Origin: Roseobacter denitrificans OCh 114
GTDB lineage: Bacteria > Pseudomonadota > Alphaproteobacteria > Rhodobacterales > Rhodobacteraceae
Reading direction: 5' to 3'
Assembly (NCBI RefSeq): GCF_000014045.1
Contig: NC_008209.1
Coordinates: 4,053,001-4,117,000 of the forward strand
Length of the DNA stretch: 64,000 bases
The first letter of the stretch is position 1; the number at the start of each line of letters is the position of its first letter. Position numbers and translations under genes: made by a program. Shown here piece after piece: positions 29,721 to 53,678 of the stretch. The notes under the pieces were generated by a model that worked only from the letters and a program-made list of their open reading frames with translations, was not told the DNA's origin and ran no database searches.

Positions 29721-30293
29721 ATGATTGACCTCACGCTGAAGCTCATCTGCGACCGGCTCAACGCGCATTTATCCGCGCTCTTTTCAGTTCCTGAAGACCT
29801 TGTGGCAATCGGACCCCTAAATGACGCAGAAGGTAAACCGTCGGCAGAGGCGCGAAACCGGCTAACCATCTTTGTGACAAATATCGCACAGGACAGCATG
29901 CCGAGAAATGACGCGGCACGCGGGGTTGCGCAGATTGGACAGGCACGGCCCGTCCATCTTGATATCTACTTCATGCTCGCCTCCGGTCACGACGCTGAAA
30001 TCTACGAAGAGGGTTTGAAGCTGGTATCGGCGGCGCTGATGTTCTTCCAGTCGAATTCCGTCATGACCCCTCAGAATACGCCCGAGATGCCCTCTGGTAT
30101 CTCGCAACTGTCAATCGACATTGCCAATCTCAAAGTTGAAGAGATCGGTCAGCTGTGGGGCAACCTTGGTGGGCGATATGTGCCATCGGTCATGTTCAAG
30201 GTCCGCTCAGTGATGATCGACGCGGGTCTGGTGAAATCCATCACCCCGCTCATCCGCGCGCCTGCAAGTTCTGCCAAAGCGGAGGCAGGATGA
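29721..30293 (+). CDS. Contractile injection system tail-terminator-like protein (DUF4255, Pvc16/Afp16 type)
   Basis: A 190-residue protein of the DUF4255 (Pvc16 N-terminal) family. Family features are the helical start MIDLTLKLICDRLNAHL, the RNRLTIFVTNIAQD strand and the terminal PSVMFKVRSVMID. In Afp/PVC particles this protein caps the distal end of tube and sheath and sets sheath attachment. The ATG at 29721 is chosen because it begins the conserved helix; upstream codons of the frame are unlike the family. First gene of the operon here, whereas Afp16 is last in Afp. It overlaps the next gene (ATGA). Confidence 0.85.
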   Translation: MIDLTLKLICDRLNAHLSALFSVPEDLVAIGPLNDAEGKPSAEARNRLTIFVTNIAQDSMPRNDAARGVAQIGQARPVHLDIYFMLASGHDAEIYEEGLKLVSAALMFFQSNSVMTPQNTPEMPSGISQLSIDIANLKVEEIGQLWGNLGGRYVPSVMFKVRSVMIDAGLVKSITPLIRAPASSAKAEAG

Positions 30294-31030
30294 TGGGCTG
30301 GGACGTTTTGGCAGAACTGACGGTTGAGCATGAATATTATGCGCCCAATATGCCCCCGGTGACGCTGCGCCCGAATGATGCGCACAGCTTTGACAAGGAT
30401 GGGCTGTTGCTGCGCCAGCAAGGCGGCAGAGGATTCATTCTTGCCGAGGAAGATACACCTGAATTGCCCGCGCAGGTTGCGATTGACCTGCATGCGCAAA
30501 GCACTGATGTGATCACCGTCACGGCAGGCGGAAACTGGGACAACGTCCCGCAAATCGACCTGACGACCGGGACCGATCACGCGACCCTGGACCCGCTGAC
30601 GCAAGACGCGCTGCCTGCTCAAACACCCGGTCACTTGCGGCTTGCGCAGCTGAACATAGGGATCACGCCCAGATTGCATCGCAAACTGCATGTGGCATTC
30701 AAGGCGATCGCATCGCATTGGGCCTATCACGTCATAGGCCCCGGACATGACGACGTGATGATCGAGGACCCGGACGGGCGTGTGTCCTTTTCCCCTCTGG
30801 GCGTGAGGGTGCTGCCAGACGGCAGACCGGCAAATGTCCTGCGTTCCAGCGATGCCCTGCCTGCGCGGGCGCGGCCCGGCCAGCGCTTCAGCCTTTCAAA
30901 ACCCGGGCCCTTTGGTCCACGCACTCTCATTCCCGTACTGCCTGCACCGCAGCCCCTGTTCGCAACCGTACCAGCCCCTGACGGGACCGGCGCACTCATT
31001 CAATCTGACATCTACGTCTCGATCTTTTAA
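30290..31030 (+). CDS. Uncharacterised protein of the contractile injection operon
   Basis: A 246-residue soluble protein without signal peptide or membrane helix. Translation is coupled to the terminator gene by an ATGA overlap, and the sheath gene follows after 15 bases. It is rich in short beta-like stretches with Pro/Gly turns (LPDGRPANVLRS, RTLIPVLPAPQP). I do not recognise a family. Its place between terminator and sheath suggests a structural or assembly role near the distal cap. Confidence 0.7.
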   Translation: MMGWDVLAELTVEHEYYAPNMPPVTLRPNDAHSFDKDGLLLRQQGGRGFILAEEDTPELPAQVAIDLHAQSTDVITVTAGGNWDNVPQIDLTTGTDHATLDPLTQDALPAQTPGHLRLAQLNIGITPRLHRKLHVAFKAIASHWAYHVIGPGHDDVMIEDPDGRVSFSPLGVRVLPDGRPANVLRSSDALPARARPGQRFSLSKPGPFGPRTLIPVLPAPQPLFATVPAPDGTGALIQSDIYVSIF

Positions 31031-31045
31031 AGGAGGACCTGCAGC

Positions 31046-33433
31046 ATGGTCATGAAAACCCCCGGCGTCTACATTGTCGAAAAGAACGCCTTTCCCAACT
31101 CCGTCGTACAGGTCGCCACGGCCGTTCCGGCGTTTATCGGCTATACAGAAAAAGCGGTGAACGGAAACGTCTCCTTGCACGAGACCCCGATGAAGATCAA
31201 TTCGATCTCGGAGTATCACAACTACTTTGGCGGCGCGTCCGAGCCTCTCTTCGCAATCAAGCCCTTCGAAGAACGCAAATCCGCACAGCCCTACGGTGAC
31301 GATGCTGACATGGCCACAGCGGCTGAGTTGCCGCAGGCCGTCTTTACGGTCGACGGCCCGGCAGGGCCCATGAAATACGAACTGATCCAGACAAATACCG
31401 CCTTTACGCTTTACAGCGCCATGCGCGCGTTTTTCCTGAATGGGGGCGGTACGTGTTATGTAACCTCCATCGGGTCTTACAAGGACCAGATCGACGCGCA
31501 AAAGATGCTCAATGCGATCACGCGGCTGGAAAAAGAACCCGAACCGACGATGCTGGTCATTCCGGAAACCACGCGCCTGACCCGTCAGAATTCGCTCAAG
31601 GTGCAGCAGCAGATGCTGGCCCATTGCGGCTTCAAGATGAAAAACCGTTTTGCGATCCTCGATATTCATGGCGGTTATCTGGATGAGCGCAGCCCGCGCG
31701 GCGATCCGATCAAATGTTTCCGCAATGACGCAGGTACAAACTATCTCGACTATGGGGCGGCCTATTACCCATGGCTCGACAGCGCGGTCTACCAGTCGCG
31801 CGATTTCACATTTGAAAACATCGAACTGAAGAAATACCGCAACGTTTTCATCTCATTGCTCAAGTCCAGCGTCAAAATGGACAAGACCATCGTGCCGGAA
31901 ATCCTGAAAGTCGGGACAGCGGTCGTATCCGGTGACTTCACCGTTTCCGTCACCAAGGGCGGCGTATCCGTCATCAAGAATTCGGACATCCACGCAGCCG
32001 ATGATCTGGCCGATGCCAAAGAGCTGAAATACAAAGTCGTCGGTGCGCCAAAGAATGCGATGGATACAGAGGCGCTCACCGAGTTGACAAATAACATGAA
32101 GGGCAAAATCGTCCTTGGTGCGAAAAATGCCACGGATGACGCGCTGAAAGAAGCGGCACCGGTCTATGACTTTACGCAAGACGACATCGACAGCGGAAAG
32201 GTACGCTACGTTCACACGGGCGACACAAGCGACAAGGGCTTTTTCGAACTGATCATCACGGACAACGAGGGCGTGCAGACATCTGCCCGAAAGATCGCCG
32301 TCTTGATCGGCAGCGATGTGCTCGCTTTGCCGGATGTCAAAAAGAAGAAAACCATAAGCATCCCCGTCGATGAAGATGGTGTGACCATCGAGAACGTGGT
32401 TCTGCTGGGCGCGGATGAGATAGACCCCGTTGCCGTCAAAAAGGACAATGACGCCGTCCAGCAGGCGCTTGCGGCGGTTGATGCATTGCCCCCGGATGCG
32501 ACAGATGCCGCCAAGGCGGAGGCTGCCAAAACACTGGAGGACGCCGAAGCTGCGGCAATCCTTGCGGTCAAGGACAAAAAACTGACGCGCAAGGATATCG
32601 GTGTTTGGGAAGTCGACGGCACGCAGGCCATCAAGTTTACGCCTGACCCTGCCCTTGATCGGGCAGAGACATCCGTGCGCTACAAATTCATGACCGCCGA
32701 CGGACTATCCGCCCCCAAGGAGATCAAGATTCTTGTGGACGGTATCGTGGCAACCGACACGACCGAAGATCAGGCGGCAAAGACGACAGACAAAACCATG
32801 CGCGTATTGGTCCCGCTTTACACCGATGTGATGAACGCCATCACCAAATACATGAACACCATGCCACCAGCAGCGGCGATGGCGGGGATTTACACGGCCG
32901 TGGATAACACCCGCGGCGTCTGGAAGGCCCCAGCGAATGTGTCCGTTGCCGGGGTGACAGGCCCCATGGTCAATATCGACCATGCACAACAGGAAAACCT
33001 GAACGTGTCGACAACCGGTAAATCGATCAACGCGATCCGTCCCTTTGTGGGCGAAGGCACGTTGGTCTGGGGCGCGCGCACGCTTGACGGCAACTCGCTG
33101 GACTGGCGCTACATCAACGTGCGTCGCACCATGATCATGATCGAGGAATCCATCCGGCTGGCCGCCAAGGCCTATGTGTTCGAACCCAACACGGCGCAGA
33201 CATGGGTGACGATCCGGTCGATGATCGAAAACTTCCTGACCTCGGTCTGGAAAGCGGGCGGTCTTGCCGGTGCGGTGCCGACGGATGCGTTCAGTGTCCA
33301 AGTCGGTCTGGGTCAGACGATGACGCCGGTGGATATTCTGGAAGGCAAGCTGCTGATCACCGTTCTGGTGGCCGTCTCGCGCCCTGCGGAATTCATCGAA
33401 ATCACGTTCCAGCAACAAATGCAGAAATCATAA
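31046..33433 (+). CDS. Contractile tail sheath protein with large inserted domains
   Basis: A 795-residue sheath subunit, the contracting outer tube. Residues 1-280 and about 585-795 are the conserved sheath core (TPGVYIVEKNAFPNSVVQVATAVPAFIGYTE; LNGGGTCYVTSIG; GTLVWGARTLDGNSLDWRYINVRRTM; VWKAGGLAGA). Between them, about 283-588 (31892-32810), is an insertion with two beta-rich modules. The first contains DFTQDDIDSGKVRYVHTGD followed by FFELIITDNEG, the signature of cadherin/CSPG-like repeats; an Ala/Asp-rich helical linker (about 465-510) separates the second. A consensus AGGAGG site (31031-31036) implies high expression. It is the only sheath gene, whereas Afp has three. Confidence 0.93.
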   Translation: MVMKTPGVYIVEKNAFPNSVVQVATAVPAFIGYTEKAVNGNVSLHETPMKINSISEYHNYFGGASEPLFAIKPFEERKSAQPYGDDADMATAAELPQAVFTVDGPAGPMKYELIQTNTAFTLYSAMRAFFLNGGGTCYVTSIGSYKDQIDAQKMLNAITRLEKEPEPTMLVIPETTRLTRQNSLKVQQQMLAHCGFKMKNRFAILDIHGGYLDERSPRGDPIKCFRNDAGTNYLDYGAAYYPWLDSAVYQSRDFTFENIELKKYRNVFISLLKSSVKMDKTIVPEILKVGTAVVSGDFTVSVTKGGVSVIKNSDIHAADDLADAKELKYKVVGAPKNAMDTEALTELTNNMKGKIVLGAKNATDDALKEAAPVYDFTQDDIDSGKVRYVHTGDTSDKGFFELIITDNEGVQTSARKIAVLIGSDVLALPDVKKKKTISIPVDEDGVTIENVVLLGADEIDPVAVKKDNDAVQQALAAVDALPPDATDAAKAEAAKTLEDAEAAAILAVKDKKLTRKDIGVWEVDGTQAIKFTPDPALDRAETSVRYKFMTADGLSAPKEIKILVDGIVATDTTEDQAAKTTDKTMRVLVPLYTDVMNAITKYMNTMPPAAAMAGIYTAVDNTRGVWKAPANVSVAGVTGPMVNIDHAQQENLNVSTTGKSINAIRPFVGEGTLVWGARTLDGNSLDWRYINVRRTMIMIEESIRLAAKAYVFEPNTAQTWVTIRSMIENFLTSVWKAGGLAGAVPTDAFSVQVGLGQTMTPVDILEGKLLITVLVAVSRPAEFIEITFQQQMQKS

Positions 33434-33458: not shown

Positions 33459-33917
33459 ATGGCAGATGATGGCTCCGCCCAAACAACGGCAATCTGGCCG
33501 CTTCCCAAGTTCCATTTTCAGGTGAAATGGGACGATACGGAACTGGCGTTTCAGGAGGTTTCCGGTCTCGACATCGAGTCCGAGCCGCTGGAATATCGCG
33601 CGGGCAACAACCCGGTTTTTTCCAAGATCAAGATGCCGGGCATGATCAAATACAGCAATATCACCATGAAAAAAGGCGTATTTGTCAAAGACAATGCTTT
33701 GTTTGACTGGTTTGCAGAGATCAAGATGAACGTGATCAAGCGCAAGGCGATCACGATTTCCTTGCTGGATGAAGCGCAAGCGCCGACGATGGTATGGAAG
33801 GTTCAAAACGCCTTTCCCATCAAGGTCACGGGCACGGATCTGAAAGCCGAGGGCAATGAGGTCGCGGTGGAAAGCATCGAGATCGCGCACGAAGGCTTTG
33901 TCATCGAGAACGCCTGA
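33459..33917 (+). CDS. Contractile injection system inner tube protein 1 (gp19/Afp1-like)
   Basis: A 152-residue phage T4 gp19-like tube protein. It has the family opening FHFQVKWDDTELAFQEVSGLDIESEPLEYR, then PGMIKYSNITMKKGVF and a terminal AVESIEIAHEGF. Hexamers stack to form the inner tube driven through the target. It starts 25 bases after the sheath with AGAAGGA upstream. The second tube gene follows after 5 bases. Confidence 0.93.
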   Translation: MADDGSAQTTAIWPLPKFHFQVKWDDTELAFQEVSGLDIESEPLEYRAGNNPVFSKIKMPGMIKYSNITMKKGVFVKDNALFDWFAEIKMNVIKRKAITISLLDEAQAPTMVWKVQNAFPIKVTGTDLKAEGNEVAVESIEIAHEGFVIENA

Positions 33918-33922: not shown

Positions 33923-34378
33923 ATGGACCCGCTTAGCCCGCCTGTCGCGTTTCATTTTTCGGTCATGTTCGTGGGCGGTACGCCGCCCGTGTCGGATACG
34001 GCATTTCAGGAGGTGTCAGGGCTCGAAAGTGGCCTTGAGACCGAAGCGCTGGTGGAAGGCGGCGAGAACCGCTTTGTCCACCAACTGCCCAAGCCGCTGA
34101 AACAGGGCAACCTCAAGCTCAAGCGCGGGATGACGCCTGCGGACAGTGGTCTGGTGAAATGGTGCAAGGCCACGATCGAAAACGATCTGTCGAAACCGAT
34201 CGAACCCAAGGACATTACGGTGTCGTTGTTGAATGAAGAGCGTGACCCGGTGGCCGTCTGGTCCATCGGGAACGCCTATCCGGTCAAGTGGACAGTAGGA
34301 GGATTTGACGCGATGAAAAACGAACTGGCCGTCGAAACAATCGAACTGGCCTATACCACCCTGAAGAGGAAAACCTGA
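33923..34378 (+). CDS. Inner tube protein 2 (Afp5-like tube initiator)
   Basis: A 151-residue second gp19-like protein, clearly homologous to its neighbour (TAFQEVSGLESGLETEALVEGGENRF; KLKRGMTPADSGLVKWCK; NELAVETIELAY) but divergent. In Afp and PVC a second tube protein sits between the baseplate hub and the main tube, and this is the likely role. ATGA overlap with the DUF5908 gene. Confidence 0.92.
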   Translation: MDPLSPPVAFHFSVMFVGGTPPVSDTAFQEVSGLESGLETEALVEGGENRFVHQLPKPLKQGNLKLKRGMTPADSGLVKWCKATIENDLSKPIEPKDITVSLLNEERDPVAVWSIGNAYPVKWTVGGFDAMKNELAVETIELAYTTLKRKT

Positions 34379-34551
34379 TGGCTGTCGAGATTGGAACGCT
34401 TGTCCTGAAGGGTCGCTTTGGGCCTGCCGAACCGGAAAGCACGCAAGCGCAGCCAGACCTGAGCGATGCGCTTGAAGCGCTCAGGCAGGAAGTGTTGCGC
34501 GATGTCGATCAAAAGCTGGAACAAGCGGCACGCCGCGCGCGGGAGCGTTGA
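34378..34551 (+). CDS. Small DUF5908-family protein (Afp6-like)
   Basis: A 57-residue protein, coupled by ATGA overlap to the tube gene and 3 bases from the next start. The opening AVEIGTLVLKGRF resembles the short DUF5908 proteins found at this exact place (between Afp5 and Afp7) in extracellular contractile injection systems. The C-terminal half is a charged helix (LEALRQEVLRDVDQKLEQAARRARER). Function unknown; presumably a baseplate or assembly factor. Confidence 0.75.
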   Translation: MAVEIGTLVLKGRFGPAEPESTQAQPDLSDALEALRQEVLRDVDQKLEQAARRARER

Positions 34552-34554: not shown

Positions 34555-35241
34555 GTGGCCAAGCTCAAGATCATCAAATGTGCGATCAAATCCAGCAAGA
34601 TCGAACCCAAAAGCGGTGCGGCCAATACGTTTCAGGCGACGATCAACCCCGAAAGCTATAAGCACAACTATTCTCTGCAATACACCGGGACCAAGAACAA
34701 CAAGGACGCGCCCGTCGGAAAATCCGGCACCGTGCCGAAATACTCGATGGCCGACCCTGAAAAGATCGGGTTCTCGATCACGGTGGATGGCACGGGCGTC
34801 GTGCCCGATGCCAAGGGCAAGACCGTCGCCGCGCAACTCGAACAGTTGCGCAAGATCGTCTATGATTATGACGGTGATGAACACGAACCGACGGCGGTGA
34901 AAATCATCTGGGGCAAGGGTCTCAAGGCGTTTTTCGGCAGGCTGACTGACATGGCCGTGGATTACACGTTGTTTCATCCCGACGGGACCGCGCTGCGGGC
35001 CAAGATCACGATGAATTTCATCGAGGCGCGCACGGCCGCACAGGAGGCGCTGGAGGCGAAACGCCGCTCGCCCGACCTGACCCATGTGGTGCGCGTGCAA
35101 AGCGGGGATACGCTGCCGATGCTGTGTTACAGGATCTACAAGGATGCGGGCAAATACCTCGCCATTGCTGCCTTCAACGACCTAGACAGTTTCAGGGATC
35201 TGGAGCCGAACACGTTGCTCCGTTTCCCGCCGATGAGGTGA
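34555..35241 (+). CDS. LysM-containing hub/baseplate protein (Afp7-like)
   Basis: A 228-residue protein. The N-terminal part (about 1-165) is a tube/hub-like beta domain; residues about 170-225 are a LysM-like module (HVVRVQSGDTLPMLCYRIYKDAGKYLAIAAFNDL...). Afp7/Pvc7 and T4 gp53 carry this module and join the hub to the wedges. GTG start at 34555. It lies directly before the spike gene as in Afp. Confidence 0.88.
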   Translation: MAKLKIIKCAIKSSKIEPKSGAANTFQATINPESYKHNYSLQYTGTKNNKDAPVGKSGTVPKYSMADPEKIGFSITVDGTGVVPDAKGKTVAAQLEQLRKIVYDYDGDEHEPTAVKIIWGKGLKAFFGRLTDMAVDYTLFHPDGTALRAKITMNFIEARTAAQEALEAKRRSPDLTHVVRVQSGDTLPMLCYRIYKDAGKYLAIAAFNDLDSFRDLEPNTLLRFPPMR

Positions 35242-35248: not shown

Positions 35249-37015
35249 ATGCCAGCAAGTCCATTAGACAATTCCGACGGCCCGCTTACCATCTCTGTGA
35301 AAGCGGACGGGTCGGAAGTGCCTGACGATCTGGCGATACAGGCGATGTACATCACACATGAGCTTAACCGCATTCCCGAGGCGACGGTTATCGTGCAATC
35401 GGACTCCGTGGAAATTGACGAGTTCGAAGAACTGGACAACTCCCTGTTTGGATTGGGCGCCGAGATTGAAATCAGAGCCGGGTTTGGCGATTCCGGGTAT
35501 CAGCAGCTTTTCAAGGGCATCGTGACCTCCCAACGCGCGCGCCTTGACGCACAACAGGGCGCAAGGCTCGAAGTCCTGTGTCGCGACAAGGCGCTCAAGC
35601 TGACGGAAACACGCAGTTCCGCCCGTTATGAAGACATGAACGATGGCGACGTGATGAAAGCTATCATCACCGATGCCGGGCTGAAGAGTGCCGTCGAAAA
35701 AGTCAAGACCGGAGCGGGCACGCAACTGCGCATTGGCGCGACTGACTGGGACTTTCTGCGCTTGCTTGCAGATCGGAACGGGTTCGTGGTGTCCGTCAAG
35801 GAAGGTGAAATCAAAGTCGCCAAGCCCGACAGTTCCGTCGCGCCAGCGCTGCTGGTGACGTTCGGCATGGACATCATCGATTTCGACATCTCACTGGAAA
35901 CCAACCGCACGATCAAAAACGCCGTACAGGATGCATGGGACGAAGCGAGCCAGGAACGCGTGACTGGCCCAAGCAATTACAAACCAAAGCTCAGTTTTGG
36001 TGATACCAAGTATAGCGACTTCGCGGAAAACCTTGGGGACAGGACGCATAAGGTCAGCACGTCACGCGAAGTGGATGCATCGGATCTCAAGGAGATGGCC
36101 AACGCCCGGGTTATCCGCTCAGAACTGGCGGCCGTATCCGGGAGCATCTCGTTTCCGGGGTGTGGTGAAATCTCGCCGCTGGATGTGCTTGAAATTTCCA
36201 ATACCGGGAAACGCTTCGGCGGCAAGGGTCTGGTCACGGCAGTGTCCCACATGATCGAAGCGGGCAAGTGGACGTCACAAACCCGGCTCGGATTGCCACC
36301 TGACTGGACCAGCGACAGCTTTGGTCTTGCAGCGCCCGCGGCTGAGGCGATAACAACCCCGATCCATGGCCTTCAGATTGGTAAAGTTGTTCAACTGGCC
36401 GATGATCCCCTGGGCAAGCAGCGCATTCTTATCTCTCTGCCGATGATAGGGCCTGAAGGATCGGATGTCTGGGCGCGCTATGCGCAACCCTATGCGTCTG
36501 ACGGGGCGGGCATCCAGTTTCTGCCGGAGGTGGGCGACGAGGTGATCGTGGCCTTCCTGAATGCGGACCCCAACGCGCCGATAATCGTCGGATCACTGCA
36601 CAACGAAAAAGCCAAGCGCCCTGAGACGGAAACCGAAGAAAACCACATCAAGACAATTGTGACGCGCGAAAAGCTGAAGGTGATCTTTGATGAGGAAAAG
36701 AAGATCATCACGGTCGAGACCCCGGGCGGTCACAAGCTGGTCATGGATGACGACGAGAGCAGTTTCAGCATGCAAGACATGAACGGCAATTTCATCAAGA
36801 TGGACAGTTCGGGCATCGCGCTGAAATCGGACAAGGATATCACCCTGACCGCAACAGGCAAAATAGAGGCCAAGGCGACGATGGACGCAACCCTATCCGG
36901 TCAGAACGTGACCTGCGAAGGGCAGATCGGGTTTACCGGCTCTGGCGGTGCGACGGCCGAGGTATCGGCGGGCGGTCAGACAAAGATCGAAGGCGGTATG
37001 GTGATGATAAACTGA
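35249..37015 (+). CDS. VgrG/gpD-like spike protein (Afp8-like)
   Basis: A 588-residue central spike. Residues about 1-340 are the gp27/gpD-like hub (GFGDSGYQQLFKGIVTSQRARLDAQQGARLEVLCRDKALKL). Residues about 375-455 are the OB-fold (GKVVQLADDPLGKQRILISLPMIGPEGSDVWARYAQPYAS), with FLPEVGDEVIVAFLNADPNAPIIVGSLHN. The C-terminal repetitive beta-helix spans about 490-588 and ends in EGGMVMIN. Trimers form the piercing needle, tipped by the PAAR protein encoded next. No extra effector domain is fused. Confidence 0.93.
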   Translation: MPASPLDNSDGPLTISVKADGSEVPDDLAIQAMYITHELNRIPEATVIVQSDSVEIDEFEELDNSLFGLGAEIEIRAGFGDSGYQQLFKGIVTSQRARLDAQQGARLEVLCRDKALKLTETRSSARYEDMNDGDVMKAIITDAGLKSAVEKVKTGAGTQLRIGATDWDFLRLLADRNGFVVSVKEGEIKVAKPDSSVAPALLVTFGMDIIDFDISLETNRTIKNAVQDAWDEASQERVTGPSNYKPKLSFGDTKYSDFAENLGDRTHKVSTSREVDASDLKEMANARVIRSELAAVSGSISFPGCGEISPLDVLEISNTGKRFGGKGLVTAVSHMIEAGKWTSQTRLGLPPDWTSDSFGLAAPAAEAITTPIHGLQIGKVVQLADDPLGKQRILISLPMIGPEGSDVWARYAQPYASDGAGIQFLPEVGDEVIVAFLNADPNAPIIVGSLHNEKAKRPETETEENHIKTIVTREKLKVIFDEEKKIITVETPGGHKLVMDDDESSFSMQDMNGNFIKMDSSGIALKSDKDITLTATGKIEAKATMDATLSGQNVTCEGQIGFTGSGGATAEVSAGGQTKIEGGMVMIN

Positions 37016-37041: not shown

Positions 37042-37332
37042 ATGCCACCAGCAGCAAGACTAACCGATATGCAGACCTGTCCGATGGTGACAGGCATTGT
37101 TCCACATGTGGGCGGCCCCATTGCCGGCCCCGGAGAGGCGACCGTTCTGATCGCCAAGATGCCGGCGGCTGTGGTCGGGGACAATTGCATTTGCGTCGGC
37201 CCGCCTGCGACCATCGTAAAGGGATCGGCAACCGTGATGATCGGCGGCAAACCGGCCGCGCGCATGGGTGATACCACATCGCACGGGGGCAGCATCTTGG
37301 TCGGCGCACCAACCGTGATCATAGGGGGCTGA
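37042..37332 (+). CDS. PAAR-domain spike tip
   Basis: A 96-residue PAAR protein of minimal length (MPPAARLTDMQTCPMVTG; PAAVVGDNCICVGPP; KPAARMGDTTSHGG; APTVIIGG). His and Cys residues for a metal site at the apex are present. It sharpens the VgrG spike. No C-terminal toxin is fused, so cargo must travel otherwise, probably in the tube lumen. Confidence 0.93.
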   Translation: MPPAARLTDMQTCPMVTGIVPHVGGPIAGPGEATVLIAKMPAAVVGDNCICVGPPATIVKGSATVMIGGKPAARMGDTTSHGGSILVGAPTVIIGG

Positions 37333-37333: not shown

Positions 37334-37771
37334 ATGTCAGAGAATGATCCGGGGTTTCTGGGACGCGGCTGGCATTTCCCGCCTACCTTCGACAAAGCAA
37401 CCGGCGAGGTTGAGATGGTTCAGGCCGAACCGGACATCGAAGAAAGCCTTTGTATCCTGATGGCGACCCGCCCCGGGGAACGGATCATGCAGCCTGCCTA
37501 CGGCTGCCGCCTGCACGACTATGTGTTCGAGACAAACGACGGGGAAACAGAGGCCGCAATCGAAACGGCCATCCGTCAGGCCATATTGTTTTTCGAACCC
37601 CGCATCACCCTGCATGAGGTCAGTGTGGATACAACCGACTGGTTGGGTGGCAAGATGCGCGTGTCATTGGACTATACCGTGGATCAGACAAATTCACGTT
37701 CCAACATGGTGTATCCATTCTATGTCCACGAAGGCACCTTGGTGGCCGATACCCCCATGCTGGCGATTTAG
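37334..37771 (+). CDS. Baseplate wedge protein gp25-like (Afp9-like)
   Basis: A 145-residue gp25/IraD-type wedge protein with the conserved DIEESLCILMATRPGERIMQPAYGCRLHDYVFE block (about residues 34-66; Glu-Arg-Pro-Tyr-Gly pattern typical). It nucleates sheath assembly at the baseplate. It starts one base after the PAAR stop. Confidence 0.92.
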   Translation: MSENDPGFLGRGWHFPPTFDKATGEVEMVQAEPDIEESLCILMATRPGERIMQPAYGCRLHDYVFETNDGETEAAIETAIRQAILFFEPRITLHEVSVDTTDWLGGKMRVSLDYTVDQTNSRSNMVYPFYVHEGTLVADTPMLAI

Positions 37772-37774: not shown

Positions 37775-38722
37775 ATGATCAACGCCCCCCCCATATCCCT
37801 GATGCGCATGGGTGCCGCGATTGCTCTGGCCCTGATCGGCCTTGCGGGGTGTGGTTTCATTGCCGACCGGCTCCGGGACGAACCGGTCAAGAGGGTGGAG
37901 GTGCTGACACCAGATCAGGCCTGTGACGCTTCCGAGCAGACGCAAAACCGCTTGTCGGGGGGGTATTTGCGGCAGGCCGAGGCAGGCGGGCTTGCCTTTG
38001 ATCCCGTGCTGGTGAACGGGCGCAGCAACAGCAACGGTCTGAGTGAAGAGATAGACCTGAACGACAAATCCCAGACCCGCGAGACGCAAGACATCAGGGG
38101 CACGACCTTTATCGGCACCAAGAAGGCCAGTGCCAAACTGCGCGCAGGATTTGGCCAGCCGGGAAAGCTGCCGAATGTCTATGATGTGACATATGCCATC
38201 AACGACATTAACTTCACCGGCCCGATGGTGATCGGACCCGCTGCCGTCATCAGCGAGATTCCCACATCCGGCGCAACCCTTTACGCGGGCAAGGTCGCGC
38301 TCAGCATCATTGCCCCGAACAACGCAGGGGAGCTGGAAACGACCAAGGCCACCGGGCGGTTTGAAATGAACGCCGGTTACGCCAGTCAACGCGGCAGCTT
38401 CACGGCGAAAGACTTCGACAAGGAATTGTCCTTTGATCGATTGATATGGCGCAATCTGTTTTTGTGCGGAACCCGTTTTGTCAGCAGTGGCAAAGGGGTT
38501 GTGGGCGTACAGGAAGGCGACGGGCCTGTTCTGGCCCCGTTCAAGACGGACCGGGAGCCGGCCCCGTTTGGCGCACTATTTGAAAGCTCGCAATTTGCGC
38601 CCTCAGAGCGGCCCGCCCCGCCGGTTTCATTTGGCGGGGTTCTGGTCATCCAAAGCGACAACGGCACGATCATAGCCGCGTTCCTGTCAGATCAGGTGAA
38701 AGAGCAGGAAAGTGATGTCTGA
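37775..38722 (+). CDS. TbpB-like outer-membrane lipoprotein within the injection operon
   Basis: A 315-residue predicted lipoprotein. The signal peptide ends in a lipobox L23-A-G-C26, and Gly follows the Cys, so outer-membrane retention is expected. The C-terminal half (about 150-310) has the alternating Gly/aromatic pattern of transferrin-binding-protein-B-like beta barrels (ATLYAGKVALSI; GRFEMNAGYASQRGSFTA; FGGVLVIQSDNGTIIAAF). The gene sits between gp25 and the J-like baseplate gene with 3-base spacing and an 8-base overlap, so it belongs to the operon. Standard Afp/PVC sets have no such gene. A tether or docking role at the outer membrane is inferred. A later ATG at 37802 is also a possible start. 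Confidence 0.72.
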   Translation: MINAPPISLMRMGAAIALALIGLAGCGFIADRLRDEPVKRVEVLTPDQACDASEQTQNRLSGGYLRQAEAGGLAFDPVLVNGRSNSNGLSEEIDLNDKSQTRETQDIRGTTFIGTKKASAKLRAGFGQPGKLPNVYDVTYAINDINFTGPMVIGPAAVISEIPTSGATLYAGKVALSIIAPNNAGELETTKATGRFEMNAGYASQRGSFTAKDFDKELSFDRLIWRNLFLCGTRFVSSGKGVVGVQEGDGPVLAPFKTDREPAPFGALFESSQFAPSERPAPPVSFGGVLVIQSDNGTIIAAFLSDQVKEQESDV

Positions 38723-45939: not shown

Positions 45940-48900
45940 TGGCAACACCTGCCCGATCTGATCCTGCCAAACCTGTATCTGCACGGATCGATAACTGTGA
46001 CGCGGCGTTTCATGTGACCCGGCTGACCGGGCCGCTTTCGTCGCCTGAAACCCTGCTGGCCGCTGTGCGCCGCGAAATCCTGCCTGCGCTATCCGATGTC
46101 CTTGATGCGCCCGAGTGGGACGGGATCGACATTCGGGCAGACCGGATCGAGATTGATCTGGGCCACTGGCCCGATGATCCCGTCTGGTCAGACGTGCGCT
46201 ATGTGCTTGCAACCAAGCTGCGATATGCGCTTGCGGATTACCTGCCCCCCGCGCCAACGGCTTCTGGCCCGCGCGCGGTCCCTGCAAAGCCGAAAGACGA
46301 CGCGACATCGCACGCCACCTTGCCAAAGAGCGAAAGCGATCCCGCTGATGACGCGCAAGTCCGCACAGAGCCGGAAACGGATCAACCGACCGCCTTGCCA
46401 CAGCAGATCGCAGATCACATCGACGCCTTCATGCGCTGGACGCAGGCTGCGTCAGGCAACAAAACCCTGCCCAAGATTCTGGCGCGGCTGGATCGTCGCT
46501 CAGCAGAAAGTCAGGCCCTGCGGCACATCCTGCGCGCGGCCTCATCCGCAGATGCCAAAGAGGCACAAACCTTGGACCGACGCCTCACGGGTGAGCTTGC
46601 TCACACGGTTTCCCGGGCGCTTACGCTTCTGGAAACGCGCACCGAGCATGCTGCCACGCAAGATGCCCCGTCCGGGCAACAGTCGGGGCATCCGCAGGCA
46701 GGGCAACCAGACCAAGTCCCGGTTACAGAAGCGTCAAACGCGGCTGCGACCACGTCGCCGCCGGACATCGCGCGTGATTTGCATGCAGCGCTCAATGGCT
46801 CTGATGCGTTCAGTCTGCGCCTGACCAACGCAAGGAAGCATCTGATACACGGCCTGTTGCAGGCCGGCGTTCCTGGGGCGGTCGCCCGCGAACGATCTTT
46901 TGCGCTTCTTCACCGTTTGCTGCCGTTTCTGGATATCGGATCTGGCGCAGCATCTCTGGTGTCTCCAGAACAGCCACAAACGGCTGCTGAGGTTGCGAGA
47001 TCGCAAGCTTCGCCTGAAAAAAGCGTGAACAGTTCCACAGTATCACCGACCACACCCAGCGGGAACCTGCCCCAAGCCAAAGGCGCGCATGGCGCGCCAG
47101 AGGCGACGAAAGCGCATCAGATTGAACCGCGCCAAAACAGCCAACCGGATGCTAGCGAGGTGCGACCACCAGAGCCTGAGCGGGATCGCGCCGTTTCAAA
47201 CCCCAGTCCGTCGCAGCATGAGACTGCGGAACCTGCCGCAGCGAGTGATGAAGCGGACGCCCTCATGTTAACCGAAATTGCGCAAGCTCTGGGCATCCGG
47301 CCCGGAGAGACCGCGAAAGATGTTTGTATCGCACAGCTGATGCAAAGCCCGACTGCGGTTTTCGATGCAGCGTCCGACCTTGGCGCGCTCAATGTACTGG
47401 TCAGGCTTTTGGCACAAGCGCAGTCGGATGCAGGCCCGCTGCTCGCCAAAGCCCCGCTTGAGGCTGACAGCATCGCAGCCCTTTTTGCGTCAGACCCGGC
47501 GACCTTTGCCAAGGCAGTTGCGCAGCTCACAACCGCCGACGCCTTTGCCCTTGCCCGCAGGCTTCTGCCACCCGGTGCAACCCTGCTGATCGCGCATCTT
47601 TCAAGACTGAGAGACAGCGCAAAGTCGCCGCGCCTTGCGATGCAGCAAGCGGTGCTTGCGCTACTCAACGGCGATTTGCTTGACTTCGAGGACCTTGCGC
47701 AAAGGGTCGAAACCCCCGCTGAAAAGATGTCTCCCGCAGAGCGCACGGGCGGGGAAACCACCGCAGAAGAGGATGGGGCGACGGAGCGCGAAAACCCGTC
47801 CGACCCCGATCCGGAAGCGGCGGCGCAACCGCATCTGGAAAAGAAAGCGCGCACAACCGGCAGTCTGGCAGAAACCGTGATGATCCTGGCCGGTTTTCAT
47901 CCATCCGAGATTGAGCGGATACTGGCGCGACCGGCCAACGGGTCCGTTCCCATGGAACCAGATCAGCGGCGATCAAGCCAGACAGAAACCCGGTCAGAGA
48001 CGTCTGATCCCACCAAAGCAGCCGCAGGCAATCCCGAAACGGGCGCACCGCCAGACCAACCGGCCGGTGAACGTTCCGACGCGGATCTCATCGCAAGAGC
48101 CGCCGCCCTGAGCAAAGCGCTGGCCGCGCCGGATAGAACGCAGTTTTCAGACGCAGCAGAACTGCTTTTGCGCGCCTGGCCCATGGTACAGCCCACCGAT
48201 GAAACTGCGCTGAGAACGGCCAATTTGCGCACGGCGCTCACCTTGTTGCTCGCGCGTGATAGCGCGCAACTCACCCTTTCGGAGTACCTTCTGGCGACAG
48301 CGCAGGAAATCGAACCGGATGCGCAAAAGCGACAATCCGCGCTGCGTGTGGTTGCCGCTCGGCTCAGCATTCCGATCGGTGCGGATGAAACTGCGCTGAG
48401 ACGACAAACACATAGCGCCATCGAGGCGCTTCTGGAGACAACACCCCAGCCGACTCCGCTTACCCAAACGGACGTGCCGGAAAAACCGCCTGAAACAGAC
48501 AGCGAAACGCTGTTGGTAACCGAGGTCGCGGGCCTTGTACTGTTGGGTCCGTTCTTCACCCTTCTGTTTGAACGGCTGAAAATCGAATGGGATGGCAAGG
48601 CGCTGCATGAAGCGGACTACCCCAAAGCACTCGGCGCCTTGCACTGTCTTGCCGATACGACACCGGGGCCAACGCCTGACCCGTTTCACCGCGTCATCCT
48701 TGGCCTTGATGCGGCATCCCCCCTGCTAATGCCGCTTGCGCCGGATGAGGACGCACAGGCGCTTATGGACGGCCTTTTGCGTTCGGTCGTCGCGCGCTGG
48801 GGGAAACTTGGTGCGACGTCTCCGGACGGACTGCGCGAGACCTTCTTGCGCCGCACCGGCACATTGCGTTTTGACGAGACGGGCACGCATCTGCGCGTCA

Positions 48901-49016
48901 CGCCCGGCCCGTTTGACATGTTGCTGGATGGATTGCCCTGGAGCATCGACCGTCTTGTCCTGCCGTGGATGCCCCTGCCCTGTCATGTCACATGGAGGGA
49001 GGACCCGGATGCTTGA
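45939..49016 (+). CDS. Contractile injection system tape-measure protein (Afp14-like, CIS_TMP)
   Basis: A 1025-residue protein with conserved ends and a low-complexity middle, as in CIS tape measures. N-terminus about 1-100: ALSDVLDAPEWDGIDIRADRIEIDLGHWPDD. The middle, about 110-850, is Ala/Glu/Pro-rich and helical. C-terminus about 860-1025: AGLVLLGPFFTLLFERLKIEWDG; GALHCLADTTPGPTPDPFHRVILGLD; FLRRTGTLRFDETGTHLRVTPGPFDMLLDGLPWSIDRLVLPWM. Length should set tube length. It starts at ATG 45939 and overlaps the ATPase gene by 8 bases. Confidence 0.88.
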   Translation: MATPARSDPAKPVSARIDNCDAAFHVTRLTGPLSSPETLLAAVRREILPALSDVLDAPEWDGIDIRADRIEIDLGHWPDDPVWSDVRYVLATKLRYALADYLPPAPTASGPRAVPAKPKDDATSHATLPKSESDPADDAQVRTEPETDQPTALPQQIADHIDAFMRWTQAASGNKTLPKILARLDRRSAESQALRHILRAASSADAKEAQTLDRRLTGELAHTVSRALTLLETRTEHAATQDAPSGQQSGHPQAGQPDQVPVTEASNAAATTSPPDIARDLHAALNGSDAFSLRLTNARKHLIHGLLQAGVPGAVARERSFALLHRLLPFLDIGSGAASLVSPEQPQTAAEVARSQASPEKSVNSSTVSPTTPSGNLPQAKGAHGAPEATKAHQIEPRQNSQPDASEVRPPEPERDRAVSNPSPSQHETAEPAAASDEADALMLTEIAQALGIRPGETAKDVCIAQLMQSPTAVFDAASDLGALNVLVRLLAQAQSDAGPLLAKAPLEADSIAALFASDPATFAKAVAQLTTADAFALARRLLPPGATLLIAHLSRLRDSAKSPRLAMQQAVLALLNGDLLDFEDLAQRVETPAEKMSPAERTGGETTAEEDGATERENPSDPDPEAAAQPHLEKKARTTGSLAETVMILAGFHPSEIERILARPANGSVPMEPDQRRSSQTETRSETSDPTKAAAGNPETGAPPDQPAGERSDADLIARAAALSKALAAPDRTQFSDAAELLLRAWPMVQPTDETALRTANLRTALTLLLARDSAQLTLSEYLLATAQEIEPDAQKRQSALRVVAARLSIPIGADETALRRQTHSAIEALLETTPQPTPLTQTDVPEKPPETDSETLLVTEVAGLVLLGPFFTLLFERLKIEWDGKALHEADYPKALGALHCLADTTPGPTPDPFHRVILGLDAASPLLMPLAPDEDAQALMDGLLRSVVARWGKLGATSPDGLRETFLRRTGTLRFDETGTHLRVTPGPFDMLLDGLPWSIDRLVLPWMPLPCHVTWREDPDA

Positions 49017-50352
49017 CGGAAATGACCGCGCCTCTGTGCAAAAACTGAATGCCCGGGCCGTCGCCATTGAAATCAAATGGCTTGAACAGGTCATCGCGGC
49101 ACGCCTCGAACACTTCTTCAAGGGGGCTGACACCGCATTTGACCTGCCCCGCGCACCTTCGCACCAAGGCAACACGGTGCTGGCCGATCTGATATCGCAA
49201 CATGGGTTATCGCCCGAGGCCCGGCTTGTGCTGGCCCTGGCCATCGCGCCGCATGTAAACTCCGCCGTGCTGGACCCGTTTTACGTCAAGAATGCCGCAA
49301 TCGACCGCGCGTTTTCCCAGTTCGGCGGCCTTCCTGATGCGAGCACGGCCTTTGTGCCGACCGTGGAAACCGCACTGTTCCTGATTGCAGGAACGGATAC
49401 GGCCGCGCGCATTGCGGCCATGCGCCTGTTTGAACCGGAACACGCGCTGCGCCTGCAAGCGGGTGTGTCACTTGTGCAAACCCCTCCGTCGCAGGCCAGT
49501 CGGCTGGACCTGCCGATGCACCGCGTCGTCGCGCTTTGTGATGGCACGCCGCCCCGGCCAGACTTTGCGCCCAACTTTCCGGCCCGTCGTCTGAGCACGA
49601 GGCTCAGCTGGGACGATCTGATCCTGCCCGCAGCGATACGCGATCAACTTGATCACATTCTGGCGTGGTTGCAGAACAGGGATAAGATCCTTGGTGACTG
49701 GGGGCTCGGGCGTCAGTTCGGACGCGGATACAAAGCACTGTTTTACGGCGCGCCCGGCACAGGCAAGACACTCACCGCAACACTTTTGGGCCAGCGCACC
49801 AACCTTGATGTCTACCGCGTGGATTTGTCGATGGTCGTTTCCAAATACATCGGAGAGACGGAAAAAAATCTGGGGATCATCTTTGACATGGCGGCAGAAC
49901 GGGATTGGATTCTGTTCTTTGACGAGGCCGATGCGCTTTTTGGGGCACGCACTGCCACCAGTTCGTCCAATGACCGCTACGCCAATCAGGAAGTCTCCTA
50001 TCTGCTGCAGCGAATTGAAGAGTGCGAAAGCCTTGTGATCCTTGCCAGCAACCTGCGCAGCAACATTGATGACGCGTTCTTTCGCCGCTTCCAAAGTGCC
50101 ATCGGCTTTGCCCGCCCCACCCCGCCGGAACGCGAGATGCTGTGGCGCAACACGTTGGCCAGCGTGCCACTGGCACCCGAGATTGATATCAAACAACTGG
50201 CGATGGATTACGACCTGTCCGGTGCAGCCATTTCCAATGTGGTCCGCCATGCCGCCGTGAGTGCTCTGCGCCGAGGGGCCGAAACCGTTGCAGCGCAAGA
50301 CCTGAAATCCGCGATCGCAGCCGAAATGCGTAAAGAAGGACGAACATCATGA
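49009..50352 (+). CDS. AAA+ ATPase of the injection system (Afp15-like)
   Basis: A 447-residue ATPase with an N-terminal helical region (about 1-205) and an AAA+ domain (about 210-440). Walker A is G247-APGTGKT, Walker B is ILFFD305EADALFG, and the second region of homology with Arg finger is RSNIDDAFFRRFQ. In Afp/PVC the homologue is needed for assembly or effector loading and is probably not part of the released particle. ATG 49009 follows GGAGGGAGGA; the frame upstream lies in the tape-measure gene. It is coupled (ATGA) to the last gene of the operon. Confidence 0.92.
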   Translation: MLDGNDRASVQKLNARAVAIEIKWLEQVIAARLEHFFKGADTAFDLPRAPSHQGNTVLADLISQHGLSPEARLVLALAIAPHVNSAVLDPFYVKNAAIDRAFSQFGGLPDASTAFVPTVETALFLIAGTDTAARIAAMRLFEPEHALRLQAGVSLVQTPPSQASRLDLPMHRVVALCDGTPPRPDFAPNFPARRLSTRLSWDDLILPAAIRDQLDHILAWLQNRDKILGDWGLGRQFGRGYKALFYGAPGTGKTLTATLLGQRTNLDVYRVDLSMVVSKYIGETEKNLGIIFDMAAERDWILFFDEADALFGARTATSSSNDRYANQEVSYLLQRIEECESLVILASNLRSNIDDAFFRRFQSAIGFARPTPPEREMLWRNTLASVPLAPEIDIKQLAMDYDLSGAAISNVVRHAAVSALRRGAETVAAQDLKSAIAAEMRKEGRTS

Positions 50353-53300
50353 GCCTCCTCAGGACCAGTTTGCGTCATATGATGGCCCTTTTTGTGGTTA
50401 CCATCGCGATGGCAACCGCCGCTGTCGCCGCCTGCTCGGATTTTGACGATATCACGGTCGATGAACTCGCCCCCGCGAACATCCGCGAGGTGCAGTTGGG
50501 CCTGCGCACCGCCTATAGAGACGCGAACCCGGCACTAACGGACGGCAAGTTGGGAATATACACACGCGAGCGATTGCGCGTGTTGTGCGAAGATGTGCCG
50601 ATGCCCGACGGCGTAAACAATGTACGCGCCACGCTGCGGTTGACGATACAATACGCGCGGCTGCAACAAAACTGGCCCGGCTGGTCAACGCAACTCTTCA
50701 CCATGAGCCTGCCCGGACCGGCTGATGCGCAAGGCGACCCGGCACTGGCGCTGCGGCTTGCGGGCACGACGGCGATGACAACGCTGGCGCTTGGCCGCCG
50801 GGCACTCACCTATGATTGCGCAACCTCCGGCGGTGTTCTCGCTCAAATCCCCAGCGCAAGTCAGGCGTTGACAACTCTGACGAATATTTTCCGCGACAAA
50901 TCCGAGGTCCAGATATGTGACCTTCTGCCCGTGGCAGGGGGGCTGGATGCATGGCAGCAAGGCATGGAGCGTTTCGGCCAGATCGAGGCAAGACGCCCCG
51001 GTGCGCTGAGTATCTTACAAAGCAGGGGTTTCATCGTCTGGATCGCGGCGGAAGAGAAAGAAAACCGGTTGCGCAGATTGGTCGGAACAGTTGACGCGGT
51101 CATCAAGCTCATCGACGAATATGCAGCGCAATCCGGTGTGCCTGCGCCCTACACGGGTGGCCCATGCTCGCCCCAAACCACTGAAGAGACGCTGACCTAC
51201 TATGCGCTTGAAGAGAGCGACATCGCTGATCTGAACTTTCTGGTCTCGCTCACCCCGATCCTTGAGGGATTCCGCGCGGATAATCCGGGCCATGACAGCC
51301 CGCAGGCGCTGTGGCGGGATCTGCGCCCGGTACTGGCTGTAGACCTCGGAGACTGCATCCTTGACGAGATCGAGAAGCTTGTCACGGGGGACGAAAAGCT
51401 GCCCCTGTCCTTTCTGCTGCGGCCTTCGGTGACGGATAAACTGCAGGGCAACCCCGCGTTTGAAACCGCGCTGCCCGTTGTCGAAAACATGATCACCGTG
51501 CGCGAACCCACCAAGGCAGGGCTGGTCAATCGCATCCAGACTGCATTGATGGACGCACAGAAAGACGCAATCGACGCGGAAGTGGATGCCGCTGCGGATG
51601 TACTGGCGGCCGCATCAGAACCCGTGCCGCCGCCCACGGATACGGCATTGCTGGAATTGGATACCGATGCCGAACCGGACCCGACACCGCGCATGACGGT
51701 TACCGATGCCACCGATCAGGCGGTGGCATCAGCCATCGATAACCCGGAGCTTTCGCAGGCCTTGCAGGACACGCCGCTGTCGGATGTCACCGTGCCTGAA
51801 CTGATGCGCGCGCAAGCCCGCGCCGCGCTGGAGGAGGCCGCGACCGCTCAGGCAGAACGCAAGGTCAAGGCACAGGTTCAGGGGATTGAGCCCTCCGTGA
51901 CCTCCGACTGGACACTGACGGAGGCACTTCAGGACGAGATCCTCGCGCTGCCCTTTATTCAGGCCACCGTCGCAGATGTAACGGCAGAGGGTCTGGCGGA
52001 CCGGCTCAAGCCGCTCATCGGTGTTGCCTACCCCAGCCGTCGTCTCTTCACCGAGGCCGTTGCGAATGTCGCCAAGATCGATGGAAAAGGCGATTTGTCG
52101 AGGTTTGTCACCGAGCGGCTCGTTCAGGCGGCGCAGAAGACGATTGATGACCCTGAAGTCACCCGTGTCTATGAGCCGTTCGAAATCGAGGACTGCAAGT
52201 GCGTTCCAGAACGCAAAAGCGAAGATCTGCAGGTCTATGGTTTTTATCCGTTTTGGCTGGCACAGCCACCCGCCAGATCTGTGCCGACAGAAGACCCCGA
52301 AGCCGAGGAGACAGAGCCGAAACAACAAACCAAGGTTGATTTCAGCGTCATTGATCACATCGCCTTTTACGGGCTTGAGTTCACTAAGGGGGATGGTGAT
52401 CGCGCGCTGCTGTACAATCGTGGTCAATGGCGCGCGGCGCGTCGGCAATTCATCAATTCAGCACATCAATACAGAGCCAAGGCCGAACTGGCGTTCGATT
52501 TGCGCGACTGGATGGACTGGACCCCGGCGGACATCGAATATGTCGTGGATGACATTGCAACCGAAATGGGTGCTTTCAACCGGGTTGAAGGGCGCAAGCC
52601 GCAGAACGTGACCGCCGCCATTCCGACCCTGTTTGATCCGATGCAGCCCGATGGCGTCACGCTGATCTTTCACGATTACCCGGGCACCCGGCTGACTGAT
52701 GCAGACAACATGCGCACAATGGTGTCGATCATCAGGCGCGTTTATCAGGAACTGCCAGATCGGGAAAACACAACGATCAACGTCGCTTTCGACTTCCCGG
52801 TGGTTCCCGAGAACAAAGGCGAAGAGCGCACGGGGGTTTTTGATGATCTTTATGAATTACTGGTCCCGAACGAAATCAGGGTGCTGAACGACAAGGATCA
52901 AAGCCTTTTGCGCAATTTCCTATCGGCGTTGAACCCCTTTCAGGACGTTAACACCCAAACAGAAACAAGTCGGGAAACGGTGGAGATCGTGGACAAGATC
53001 CTCCTGTTTCTGGAGCGTCCGACATCGGATGCAAAAAAGGAGTTGCGCCTGCGCATGGAAGAGGGCCTGTTCAAGGGGCCGGTGCGCGCAGACGTTTTGC
53101 GCAGCATCATTCCTGTGGTCCCACCGGGTGGGCACAGATTTATCAAGAGCACCCCGCACGAAGACGCCTTTGACACCACACCCGCAAAGGAGTTCTCGCA
53201 ATTTGACGATGACGTCGTCTATTTCAAGGACAACTTTTCCGGTATCGGATTCTGGCCCGTTCTGGACCCGCAGTCTGACGATAACGCCGAAATGACGGCG

Positions 53301-53678
53301 ATAATTTCGAAATACTTCGACAAGCAGCTTCCGCCTTCACTGGCAGGGTTTGAAACCATTATCACCAATACATGCAACTACTGGTGCCCCAACCGTGCAA
53401 GGATAACGCTGGGCGCGATTGCTCTGTTCATTCTGGTCGGGGTTTTGACGTGGCGGTCGTTTTACAGTGGGCTGGCCGATCAAATCGCCTTTCGCTTCAT
53501 GTGGGTCGGCCTTGTGTGGTCCGGACATGTCGTGTTGATCGCAACGCTCTTCATTCTGGCGAATTGTGATCCGCATGCTGTGTGGCCGGGTCGCTTTATG
53601 TGGACATTGATCGGGGTGCTTGGCGTCATGTTGGCGGTAAGCTCCTACCAACGGCACAAAAACGGCCCAATGCCCTGA
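50349..53678 (+). CDS. Exported membrane-anchored protein with inactive-looking GH18-like domain, last gene of injection operon
   Basis: A 1109-residue envelope protein. Signal peptide is 1-29 (ends AAVAACS). A long helical, Ala/Asp-rich region runs about 30-600. A GH18-like barrel spans about 625-960: opening strand VYGFYPFWLA at 629, then VDFSVIDHIAFYGLEF, then NTTINVAFDFP. At the place of the GH18 catalytic DGxxxDxE the sequence reads D768-GVTLIFH775, so the acidic catalytic pair is missing and hydrolysis is unlikely. Residues about 1015-1105 hold three membrane helices. The protein could bind glycan and anchor or gate the machine at the inner membrane. Translation is coupled to the AAA+ gene. 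The stop codon abuts repeat copy 2. Confidence 0.7.
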   Translation: MSLLRTSLRHMMALFVVTIAMATAAVAACSDFDDITVDELAPANIREVQLGLRTAYRDANPALTDGKLGIYTRERLRVLCEDVPMPDGVNNVRATLRLTIQYARLQQNWPGWSTQLFTMSLPGPADAQGDPALALRLAGTTAMTTLALGRRALTYDCATSGGVLAQIPSASQALTTLTNIFRDKSEVQICDLLPVAGGLDAWQQGMERFGQIEARRPGALSILQSRGFIVWIAAEEKENRLRRLVGTVDAVIKLIDEYAAQSGVPAPYTGGPCSPQTTEETLTYYALEESDIADLNFLVSLTPILEGFRADNPGHDSPQALWRDLRPVLAVDLGDCILDEIEKLVTGDEKLPLSFLLRPSVTDKLQGNPAFETALPVVENMITVREPTKAGLVNRIQTALMDAQKDAIDAEVDAAADVLAAASEPVPPPTDTALLELDTDAEPDPTPRMTVTDATDQAVASAIDNPELSQALQDTPLSDVTVPELMRAQARAALEEAATAQAERKVKAQVQGIEPSVTSDWTLTEALQDEILALPFIQATVADVTAEGLADRLKPLIGVAYPSRRLFTEAVANVAKIDGKGDLSRFVTERLVQAAQKTIDDPEVTRVYEPFEIEDCKCVPERKSEDLQVYGFYPFWLAQPPARSVPTEDPEAEETEPKQQTKVDFSVIDHIAFYGLEFTKGDGDRALLYNRGQWRAARRQFINSAHQYRAKAELAFDLRDWMDWTPADIEYVVDDIATEMGAFNRVEGRKPQNVTAAIPTLFDPMQPDGVTLIFHDYPGTRLTDADNMRTMVSIIRRVYQELPDRENTTINVAFDFPVVPENKGEERTGVFDDLYELLVPNEIRVLNDKDQSLLRNFLSALNPFQDVNTQTETSRETVEIVDKILLFLERPTSDAKKELRLRMEEGLFKGPVRADVLRSIIPVVPPGGHRFIKSTPHEDAFDTTPAKEFSQFDDDVVYFKDNFSGIGFWPVLDPQSDDNAEMTAIISKYFDKQLPPSLAGFETIITNTCNYWCPNRARITLGAIALFILVGVLTWRSFYSGLADQIAFRFMWVGLVWSGHVVLIATLFILANCDPHAVWPGRFMWTLIGVLGVMLAVSSYQRHKNGPMP

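Follow-up and report, generated by a model that had tools for sequence, protein, structure and literature searches.

In the canonical type VI secretion system (T6SS), the contractile machine stands on the TssJLM complex, which pairs an outer-membrane lipoprotein with an inner-membrane protein linked to the wall. Contractile injection systems (CIS) of the extracellular (eCIS) lineage can also be anchored, and the anchors described so far all differ. The Anabaena tCIS is a membrane-anchored member of the lineage which is held by a membrane helix of Cis13 and an extension of Cis12 (PMC8894136). A haloarchaeal T6SS-like CIS is eCIS-related, has been seen at the cytoplasmic membrane and comes with a clade-specific putative anchor gene (PMC11566945). 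In Streptomyces, CIS function and firing depend on the membrane protein CisA; its N-terminus is cytosolic, a single helix crosses the membrane and the periplasmic part is like substrate-binding domains (PMC12237407). Here we analyze a 64,000-nucleotide stretch of Roseobacter denitrificans OCh 114 (contig NC_008209.1, positions 4,053,001 to 4,117,000; hereafter the window, in whose own numbering all coordinates are given), which holds a full eCIS-lineage CIS in an operon of 17 genes, g1 to g17, at 29721-53678. We consider it fairly probable that this CIS is a cell-anchored machine, held by a tether that is like TssJLM but non-homologous to it.

All 17 genes lie on the + strand, as the initial annotation had stated, with intergenic distances of -11 to +26 bp (frame starts as called), on contig C1 of a 4.33 Mb host genome in 5 contigs. 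The gene set of the lineage (Afp/PVC/AlgoCIS/tCIS) is complete in this one cluster: sheath, tubes, hub, VgrG, PAAR, gp25, J baseplates, tape-measure protein (TMP), AAA+ ATPase and Pvc16. Two further genes, g11 (37775..38722, + strand) and g17 (50349..53678, + strand), gave no significant match in Pfam, NCBIfam, PHROGs or PADLOC. We regard g11 as a lipoprotein and putative outer-membrane tether, and g17 as a putative inner-membrane/cell-wall anchor. The initial annotation had called them an outer-membrane lipoprotein and an exported multi-pass protein, and the expected sequence features are present: a lipobox (LAGC) in g11, and a signal-peptide-like N-terminus and C-terminal helices in g17.

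The architecture of g17 suggests a protein that spans the inner membrane and faces the cell wall. A signal peptide is followed by a PG_binding_1-like stretch (about residues 44-82), a helical region, a pseudo-GH18 barrel (about residues 624-993), three membrane helices and a short tail; the structure model gives all three helices, and hydropathy alone gives two of the three in the window protein. PF01471 (PG_binding_1) matched 4 of 40 aligned g17 proteins at E up to 1 (best 2.9e-4) and was over the cut-off in one of four further homologues. The barrel is predicted to adopt a GH18-like TIM-barrel fold, and its fold matches include the spore-cortex lytic enzyme SleL. GH18 enzymes carry the catalytic motif DxxDxDxE. 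With the register set from the strand-4 sequence motif, the first inner Asp position is T in 40/40 members of the g17 alignment and the second is never D, while the Glu position is E in 15 of the 40 and H in the window protein. This alignment comprises the window protein and 39 of the 56 loci from the pattern scan described below, picked for long genes. The chitinase-fold barrel of g17 is probably dead as an enzyme.

Linkage ties g17 to CIS genes at three taxonomic scales. In the same family, 11 of 295 genomes matched CIS_TMP; g17 was matched in 5, each of which belongs to these 11 and has the gene order TMP-AAA-g17; genome-wide searches of the other six CIS genomes found neither g17 nor the lipoprotein, and neither was seen in the CIS loci viewed in G035, G072, G098, G101 and G246 (G133 not included). 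Across 398 genomes of the same phylum (the own genome is counted in this sample and in the family sample), CIS_TMP was over the cut-off in 9 and the g17 profile matched in 11. Five of these 11 matches cover the barrel, reaching the membrane end in four, and all five are in CIS-positive genomes with g17 adjoining the TMP or AAA gene; the other six cover the N-terminal or middle part only. Finally, 84,980 species genomes were scanned with two short peptide patterns from a five-row alignment, which may have missed g17 elsewhere; 56 g17 loci were returned, four of them in genomes already in the family scan. These loci belong to Rhodobacterales, Nitrosomonas, Oxalobacteraceae, Rhodocyclaceae, Gammaproteobacteria, one Nitrospirota metagenome-assembled genome (MAG), one 'Deltaproteobacteria' MAG and others, and CIS genes lie beside g17 in 51 of the 56. 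Of the five loci that lack them, four have a truncated gene, which begins at a contig end in L064, L079 and L084 and directly behind a 100-N gap in L109; in L106 the gene is broken, and its 8.5-kb contig carries no CIS genes.

The lipoprotein g11 shows a narrower distribution. Its model has a TbpB/fHbp-type handle and barrel fold (pLDDT 75.6). We searched for it in 35 of the 56 g17 loci (20 of the 25 alphaproteobacterial ones and 15 of the 31 others), and it was found in all 20 alphaproteobacterial genomes, with the best match adjoining the J1 baseplate gene. Because only the alphaproteobacterial branch was positive (0/15 among the others), g11 is not part of the tether everywhere. In one further contig (L043; G132 contig 187, 4.6 kb), the lipoprotein gene stands beside a J1 fragment, in a genome that is 99% complete and gave no CIS_TMP match. 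Export to the surface by Slam was set aside as the first choice for g11, since Slam (PF04575) is missing from the own genome and was matched in 5 of 20 genomes searched (4 over the cut-off); among lipoprotein-bearing genomes searched, 12 of 17 gave no match. According to the initial annotation, its reading would fail if relatives carried the lipoprotein and the last gene apart from injection systems, and our searches did not bear this out. Judged from this gene neighborhood, g17 and g11 are not hitch-hikers in the operon, because g17 stands by CIS genes in 51/56 loci and g11 beside J1 in 20/20.

A third protein of interest is g13 (42824..43684, + strand), a short conserved Cis13/fibre-like protein encoded between J1 and J2. 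Its profile matches bd2133 (E 1e-5), its N-terminus resembles All3316, the Cis13 of tCIS (E 0.0014), and hydropathy shows no hydrophobic or membrane helix. Median pairwise identity in 14 alphaproteobacterial g17 systems is 58% for g13, 61% for AAA+, 37% for J2 and 36% for g17; in five other g17 systems the values are 42%, 56%, 36% and 29%, respectively. In g17-less systems, the slot protein was recognized in 3 of 6, at 29% identity and 0.63 coverage, next to 42% for AAA+ and 31% for J2, in a comparison of small samples in which the g17-less set is the more divergent. Such high conservation of g13 would be better explained by a partner within the cell's own envelope than by foreign receptors.

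From gene content, linkage and conservation, together with the predicted folds, helices and loss of the catalytic motif, we infer a localization, a topology, a g13-g17 contact, a firing direction and a cargo as follows. Sheath, tube, baseplate and tape measure would assemble in the cytoplasm, as is usual for the family. The three helices would hold g17 in the inner membrane with its cytosolic tail towards the baseplate, and its periplasmic part may grip the cell wall through the PG-binding-like stretch and the probably dead chitinase-fold barrel, which could serve as a glycan lectin. In place of a target-binding fibre, g13 would connect g17 with J2 at the rim of the baseplate. The alphaproteobacterial g11 would sit in the outer membrane, probably facing the periplasm, and complete a trans-envelope path. 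Firing would push the tube out through the cell's own envelope, as in T6SS, with a cargo such as the nearby eCIS_core protein. In its most specific form, which we put forward only tentatively, the alphaproteobacterial system is a trans-envelope complex that acts like TssJLM but consists of parts unrelated to it, the pseudo-chitinase wall anchor g17 and the TbpB-fold lipoprotein g11, docked by a fibre-derived g13, through which an eCIS has been turned into a reusable secretion system that fires on contact.

Several observations weigh against a tether of this kind. PF01471 gives nothing in the window's own g17 and nothing in three of the four further homologues. Decay of the catalytic motif is uneven among homologues, as in the g17 homologue of PDB entry 9r9a the first inner Asp position is T and the second is D. 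At 36% median identity, g17 is the least conserved of the four proteins compared. The absence of g11 from all 15 non-alphaproteobacterial genomes means that a tether there would be without this outer-membrane part. One g17-bearing CIS (L154, genome G562) has no AAA+ gene between TMP and g17, and AAA+ trees do not place the g17 systems on one side of a branch, with four changes in the first tree and two in the second; a single g17 clade is not rejected (AU p 0.149), nor is it demonstrated. In the relative G001, moreover, a Slam gene lies within the 21-kb stretch between two CIS modules (contig 12, 118,708 bases), so that surface display of the lipoprotein may be possible there. That Slam gene is adjoined by its own TbpB_B_D lipoprotein, which has no sequence likeness to g11, and g11 export is therefore neither shown nor excluded.

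Three other accounts of the two proteins were weighed. The initial annotation had proposed a machine docked in the envelope of its producer; linkage, lipobox, PG-binding-like stretch, helices and lost GH18 catalysis all fit a tether, yet docking is what we infer from them, and a trigger of the CisA type would look alike. We judge it unlikely that g17 is chiefly such a sensor or trigger: particles would stay free in the cytoplasm until envelope damage is signalled by the wall-facing part of g17, then contact the membrane and fire, killing their own cell or a neighbor, so that docking would be transient. A precedent exists in CisA, the membrane protein with a periplasmic domain that Streptomyces CIS need for function and firing (PMC12237407), and the large wall-facing part of g17 would suit sensing. 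CisA as described there, though, has one helix and a substrate-binding-like domain, unlike g17, and a standing connection would agree better with a g13 that is short and conserved and with the lipoprotein of the alphaproteobacteria.

An ordinary free eCIS, to which g17 and g11 are accessories (a surface lectin or adhesin, or protection of the own envelope) that do not touch the machine, seems improbable to us. In its favor, the core genes are those of any eCIS and a DUF4157 gene is close by, lipoproteins with the TbpB/fHbp fold are typically exposed on the surface, and G001 has Slam on its CIS contig. Tight linkage and co-inheritance across Pseudomonadota and one Nitrospirota MAG speak against it, as do the lack of Slam in the own genome and in 12/17 lipoprotein-bearing genomes searched, the TbpB_B_D lipoprotein next to the G001 Slam and the finding that the PDB entry of a g17 homologue is numbered among those of SalCIS. 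We give even less credence to g17 and g11 as a lysis and release module whose chitinase-fold domain opens the wall and frees the particles. The PG-binding-like stretch, the GH18 fold with SleL among its matches and the E retained at the motif Glu position in 15/40 members could be read in this way; the inner Asp positions are nevertheless lost in 40/40, the Glu of the motif is replaced by H in the window protein, g17 would be held in the inner membrane by its three helices, and no holin or endolysin family was found in ten flanking proteins scanned. A lysis enzyme as first choice was dropped because of the lost catalytic positions. The cell-anchored machine is the account that we consider most likely.

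The arrangement of related loci shows that the CIS cluster is built of two modules. Directly behind g17 in L073, L077, L078 and L080 comes the core block, from gp25 to sheath, on the opposite strand and tail to tail; in G001 this block occupies 27.8-35.7 kb of the contig that also carries the lipoprotein gene, at a distance of 21 kb. The baseplate/tape-measure block and g17 stay joined, and g17 therefore travels with that module. A different module order is seen in L096 (Herbaspirillum rhizosphaerae), where g17 is followed at 13645-21316 by genes for another AAA+ protein of 775 aa and for sheath, tube and hub. In L036, L037 and L183 (G001 contig 12), the baseplate block spans both contig ends, as it would in a circular plasmid. 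L154 carries an AAA+ gene on the other strand, about 1.8 kb off. The first AAA+ tree omitted L062, L066, L078 and L080, which are the same genomes as L038, L036, L041 and L040; the second also omitted L153 (end branch 10, a doubtful orthologue) and twelve near-copy rows. The window AAA+ is nearest to those of two Roseobacter records.

Most of the core parts named in the initial annotation were recovered with Pfam or PDB matches, and Pfam confirms Pvc16_N, sheath, two gp19 tubes, CIS_tube hub, Phage_base_V/VgrG, PAAR, gp25, CIS_TMP and AAA. All on the + strand, the operon begins with the tail terminator/cap g1 (Pvc16_N, 29721..30293; PF14065 E 2e-27) and continues with g2 (30290..31030), a gene that the annotation had left unnamed and that encodes a second cap protein (7-row profile against PDB 9r9n 'SalCis16b - cap', E 1.3e-20). 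The sheath g3 (31046..33433), found by Pfam and with 9r9h as its top solved match (E 6e-169), has 795 aa and a Cadherin_3-like insert at residues 299-409 (Pfam, E 1.5e-10); complete sheaths in g17-bearing relatives measure 526 to 767 aa. Two inner tubes, g4 (33459..33917; PF06841 E 9e-49) and g5 (33923..34378; PF06841 E 2e-44), precede g6 (34378..34551), a small DUF5908-like protein whose match to PF19265 (E 6e-4, 21.2 bits) falls below the cut-off of 27.7 bits. The hub/tube initiator g7 (CIS_tube, 34555..35241; PF19266 E 1e-43) had been annotated with LysM; Pfam reports no LysM there at E 0.01, and only visual inspection picks out a LysM-like stretch. The spike and wedge genes follow: VgrG-like g8 (35249..37015; PF04717 E 2e-21), PAAR tip g9 (37042..37332; PF05488 E 7e-24) and gp25 baseplate wedge g10 (37334..37771; PF04965 E 1e-25). 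The baseplate proteins J1 (g12, Cis11, 38712..42827) and J2 (g14, Cis12, 43681..45939) have no Pfam match and yet match solved baseplate proteins of other CIS: J1 PDB 9rce_A (E 1e-81) as well as All3317 (E 2e-44), J2 9rce_B SalCis12 (E 1e-28) as well as All3315 and Algo12. The tape measure g15 (CIS_TMP, 45939..49016; PF19268 E 2e-48) and the AAA+ ATPase g16 (Cis15, 49009..50352; PF00004 E 6e-25) lead up to g17. ATG starts for the terminator (29721), J2 (43681) and AAA+ (49009) were read from the letters, with frames unchanged. A 727-aa open frame antisense to J2 (43606-45789, minus strand) is probably a by-product of codon use.

The annotation had also held that this is not a canonical T6SS, and we agree: that assignment was rejected because IcmF_C (TssM) was not found in the own assembly (among 14 control genomes, E. 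coli gave a match; TssJ and TssL were not searched for). An anti-phage system was rejected as well, since PADLOC matches were limited to the AAA+ protein g16. As to a phage relation, no sheath relative was confirmed in viral contigs at the sensitivity used, and in PHROGs J1 had a single match, weak and partial, with no significant match among the other proteins scanned.

On the minus strand, 2.9 kb upstream of the operon, lies a gene for a small eCIS_core (DUF4157) protein (26150..26857; PF13699 E 6e-12) with an HEAWH zinc motif; three tandem 14-residue repeats (IQRMEDEEMLQGK type) stand ahead of the zinc-motif domain. DUF4157 is described as an eCIS core domain found within or adjoining toxins (PMC8213781). 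With g17 genomes and controls searched, eCIS_core was matched in 35/35 of the former and 0/14 of the latter, and in 11 of 19 lipoprotein-bearing genomes it lies on the same contig within 15 kb (<=15 kb) of the lipoprotein gene. By sequence, the DUF4157 protein is a candidate cargo or cargo-handling protein. Downstream of the CIS, 54162-58625 holds formate-dehydrogenase-like genes and then folate C1 genes. A clean empty site was sought in the same-genus genome G266 (no CIS_TMP match), where the sole match was the formate dehydrogenase gene; the 18 kb upstream of that gene have no blastn match to the window, and therefore no insertion boundary can be defined.

The system may bear on how machines of the eCIS lineage pass from free particles to weapons anchored in the cell, or back. 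As a genetic marker, g17, with its wall-binding-like stretch and probably dead chitinase-fold part, marks a widespread class in two-membrane bacteria and puts the mode of action within experimental reach in culturable relatives (Roseobacter group, Nitrosomonas, Herbaspirillum). Systems termed 'extracellular' by their core genes may be otherwise.

The nearest solved relative is SalCIS (9r9h, 9r9i, 9r9n, 9rce; named after the 'SalCis' labels in PDB molecule records), by sheath (E 6e-169), J1 (1e-81), J2 (1e-28) and g2 (1e-20). The g17 profile also matches, at E 5e-50 and over N-terminal, barrel and C-terminal parts, an 'Uncharacterized protein' of 864 aa in PDB entry 9r9a. Because of close entry numbers and shared sequences we tentatively assign 9r9a and 9r9h to the SalCIS study; 9r9a probably belongs to the SalCIS deposition, whose depositors would then regard the g17 homologue as a CIS component. 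No paper on SalCIS or its organism and no description of g17 were found in the open-access literature (preprints not covered). By a definition of our own, the window system is SalCIS-like, having a second cap and a g17-type membrane protein beside an eCIS core; it differs in g11, which has no PDB sequence match. The system is thus not categorically new, as 9r9a holds a g17 homologue and SalCIS is its nearest solved relative. TssJLM offers a similar layout built from other parts, as g17 and g11 have predicted GH18-like and TbpB-like folds and IcmF_C was not found. Set against the anchored systems, g13 resembles the tail-fibre-like Cis13 of tCIS (All3316) in its N-terminus but lacks a hydrophobic helix, and a separate g17 is present here. 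For the haloarchaeal anchor, six helices and a domain in the cytoplasm are predicted, whereas g17 combines three helices with a periplasmic part that is wall-binding-like. Like CisA, g17 is an extra membrane protein with a predicted periplasmic part; the CisA system, however, is that of a Gram-positive, with cytoplasmic particles acting in cell death and another fold, and the signal peptide, PG-binding-like and GH18-like parts and three helices of g17 place it outside the CisA family as described. Anchored CIS of the eCIS lineage are therefore already known from tCIS, the haloarchaeal system and CisA, and the parts used here differ from all three.
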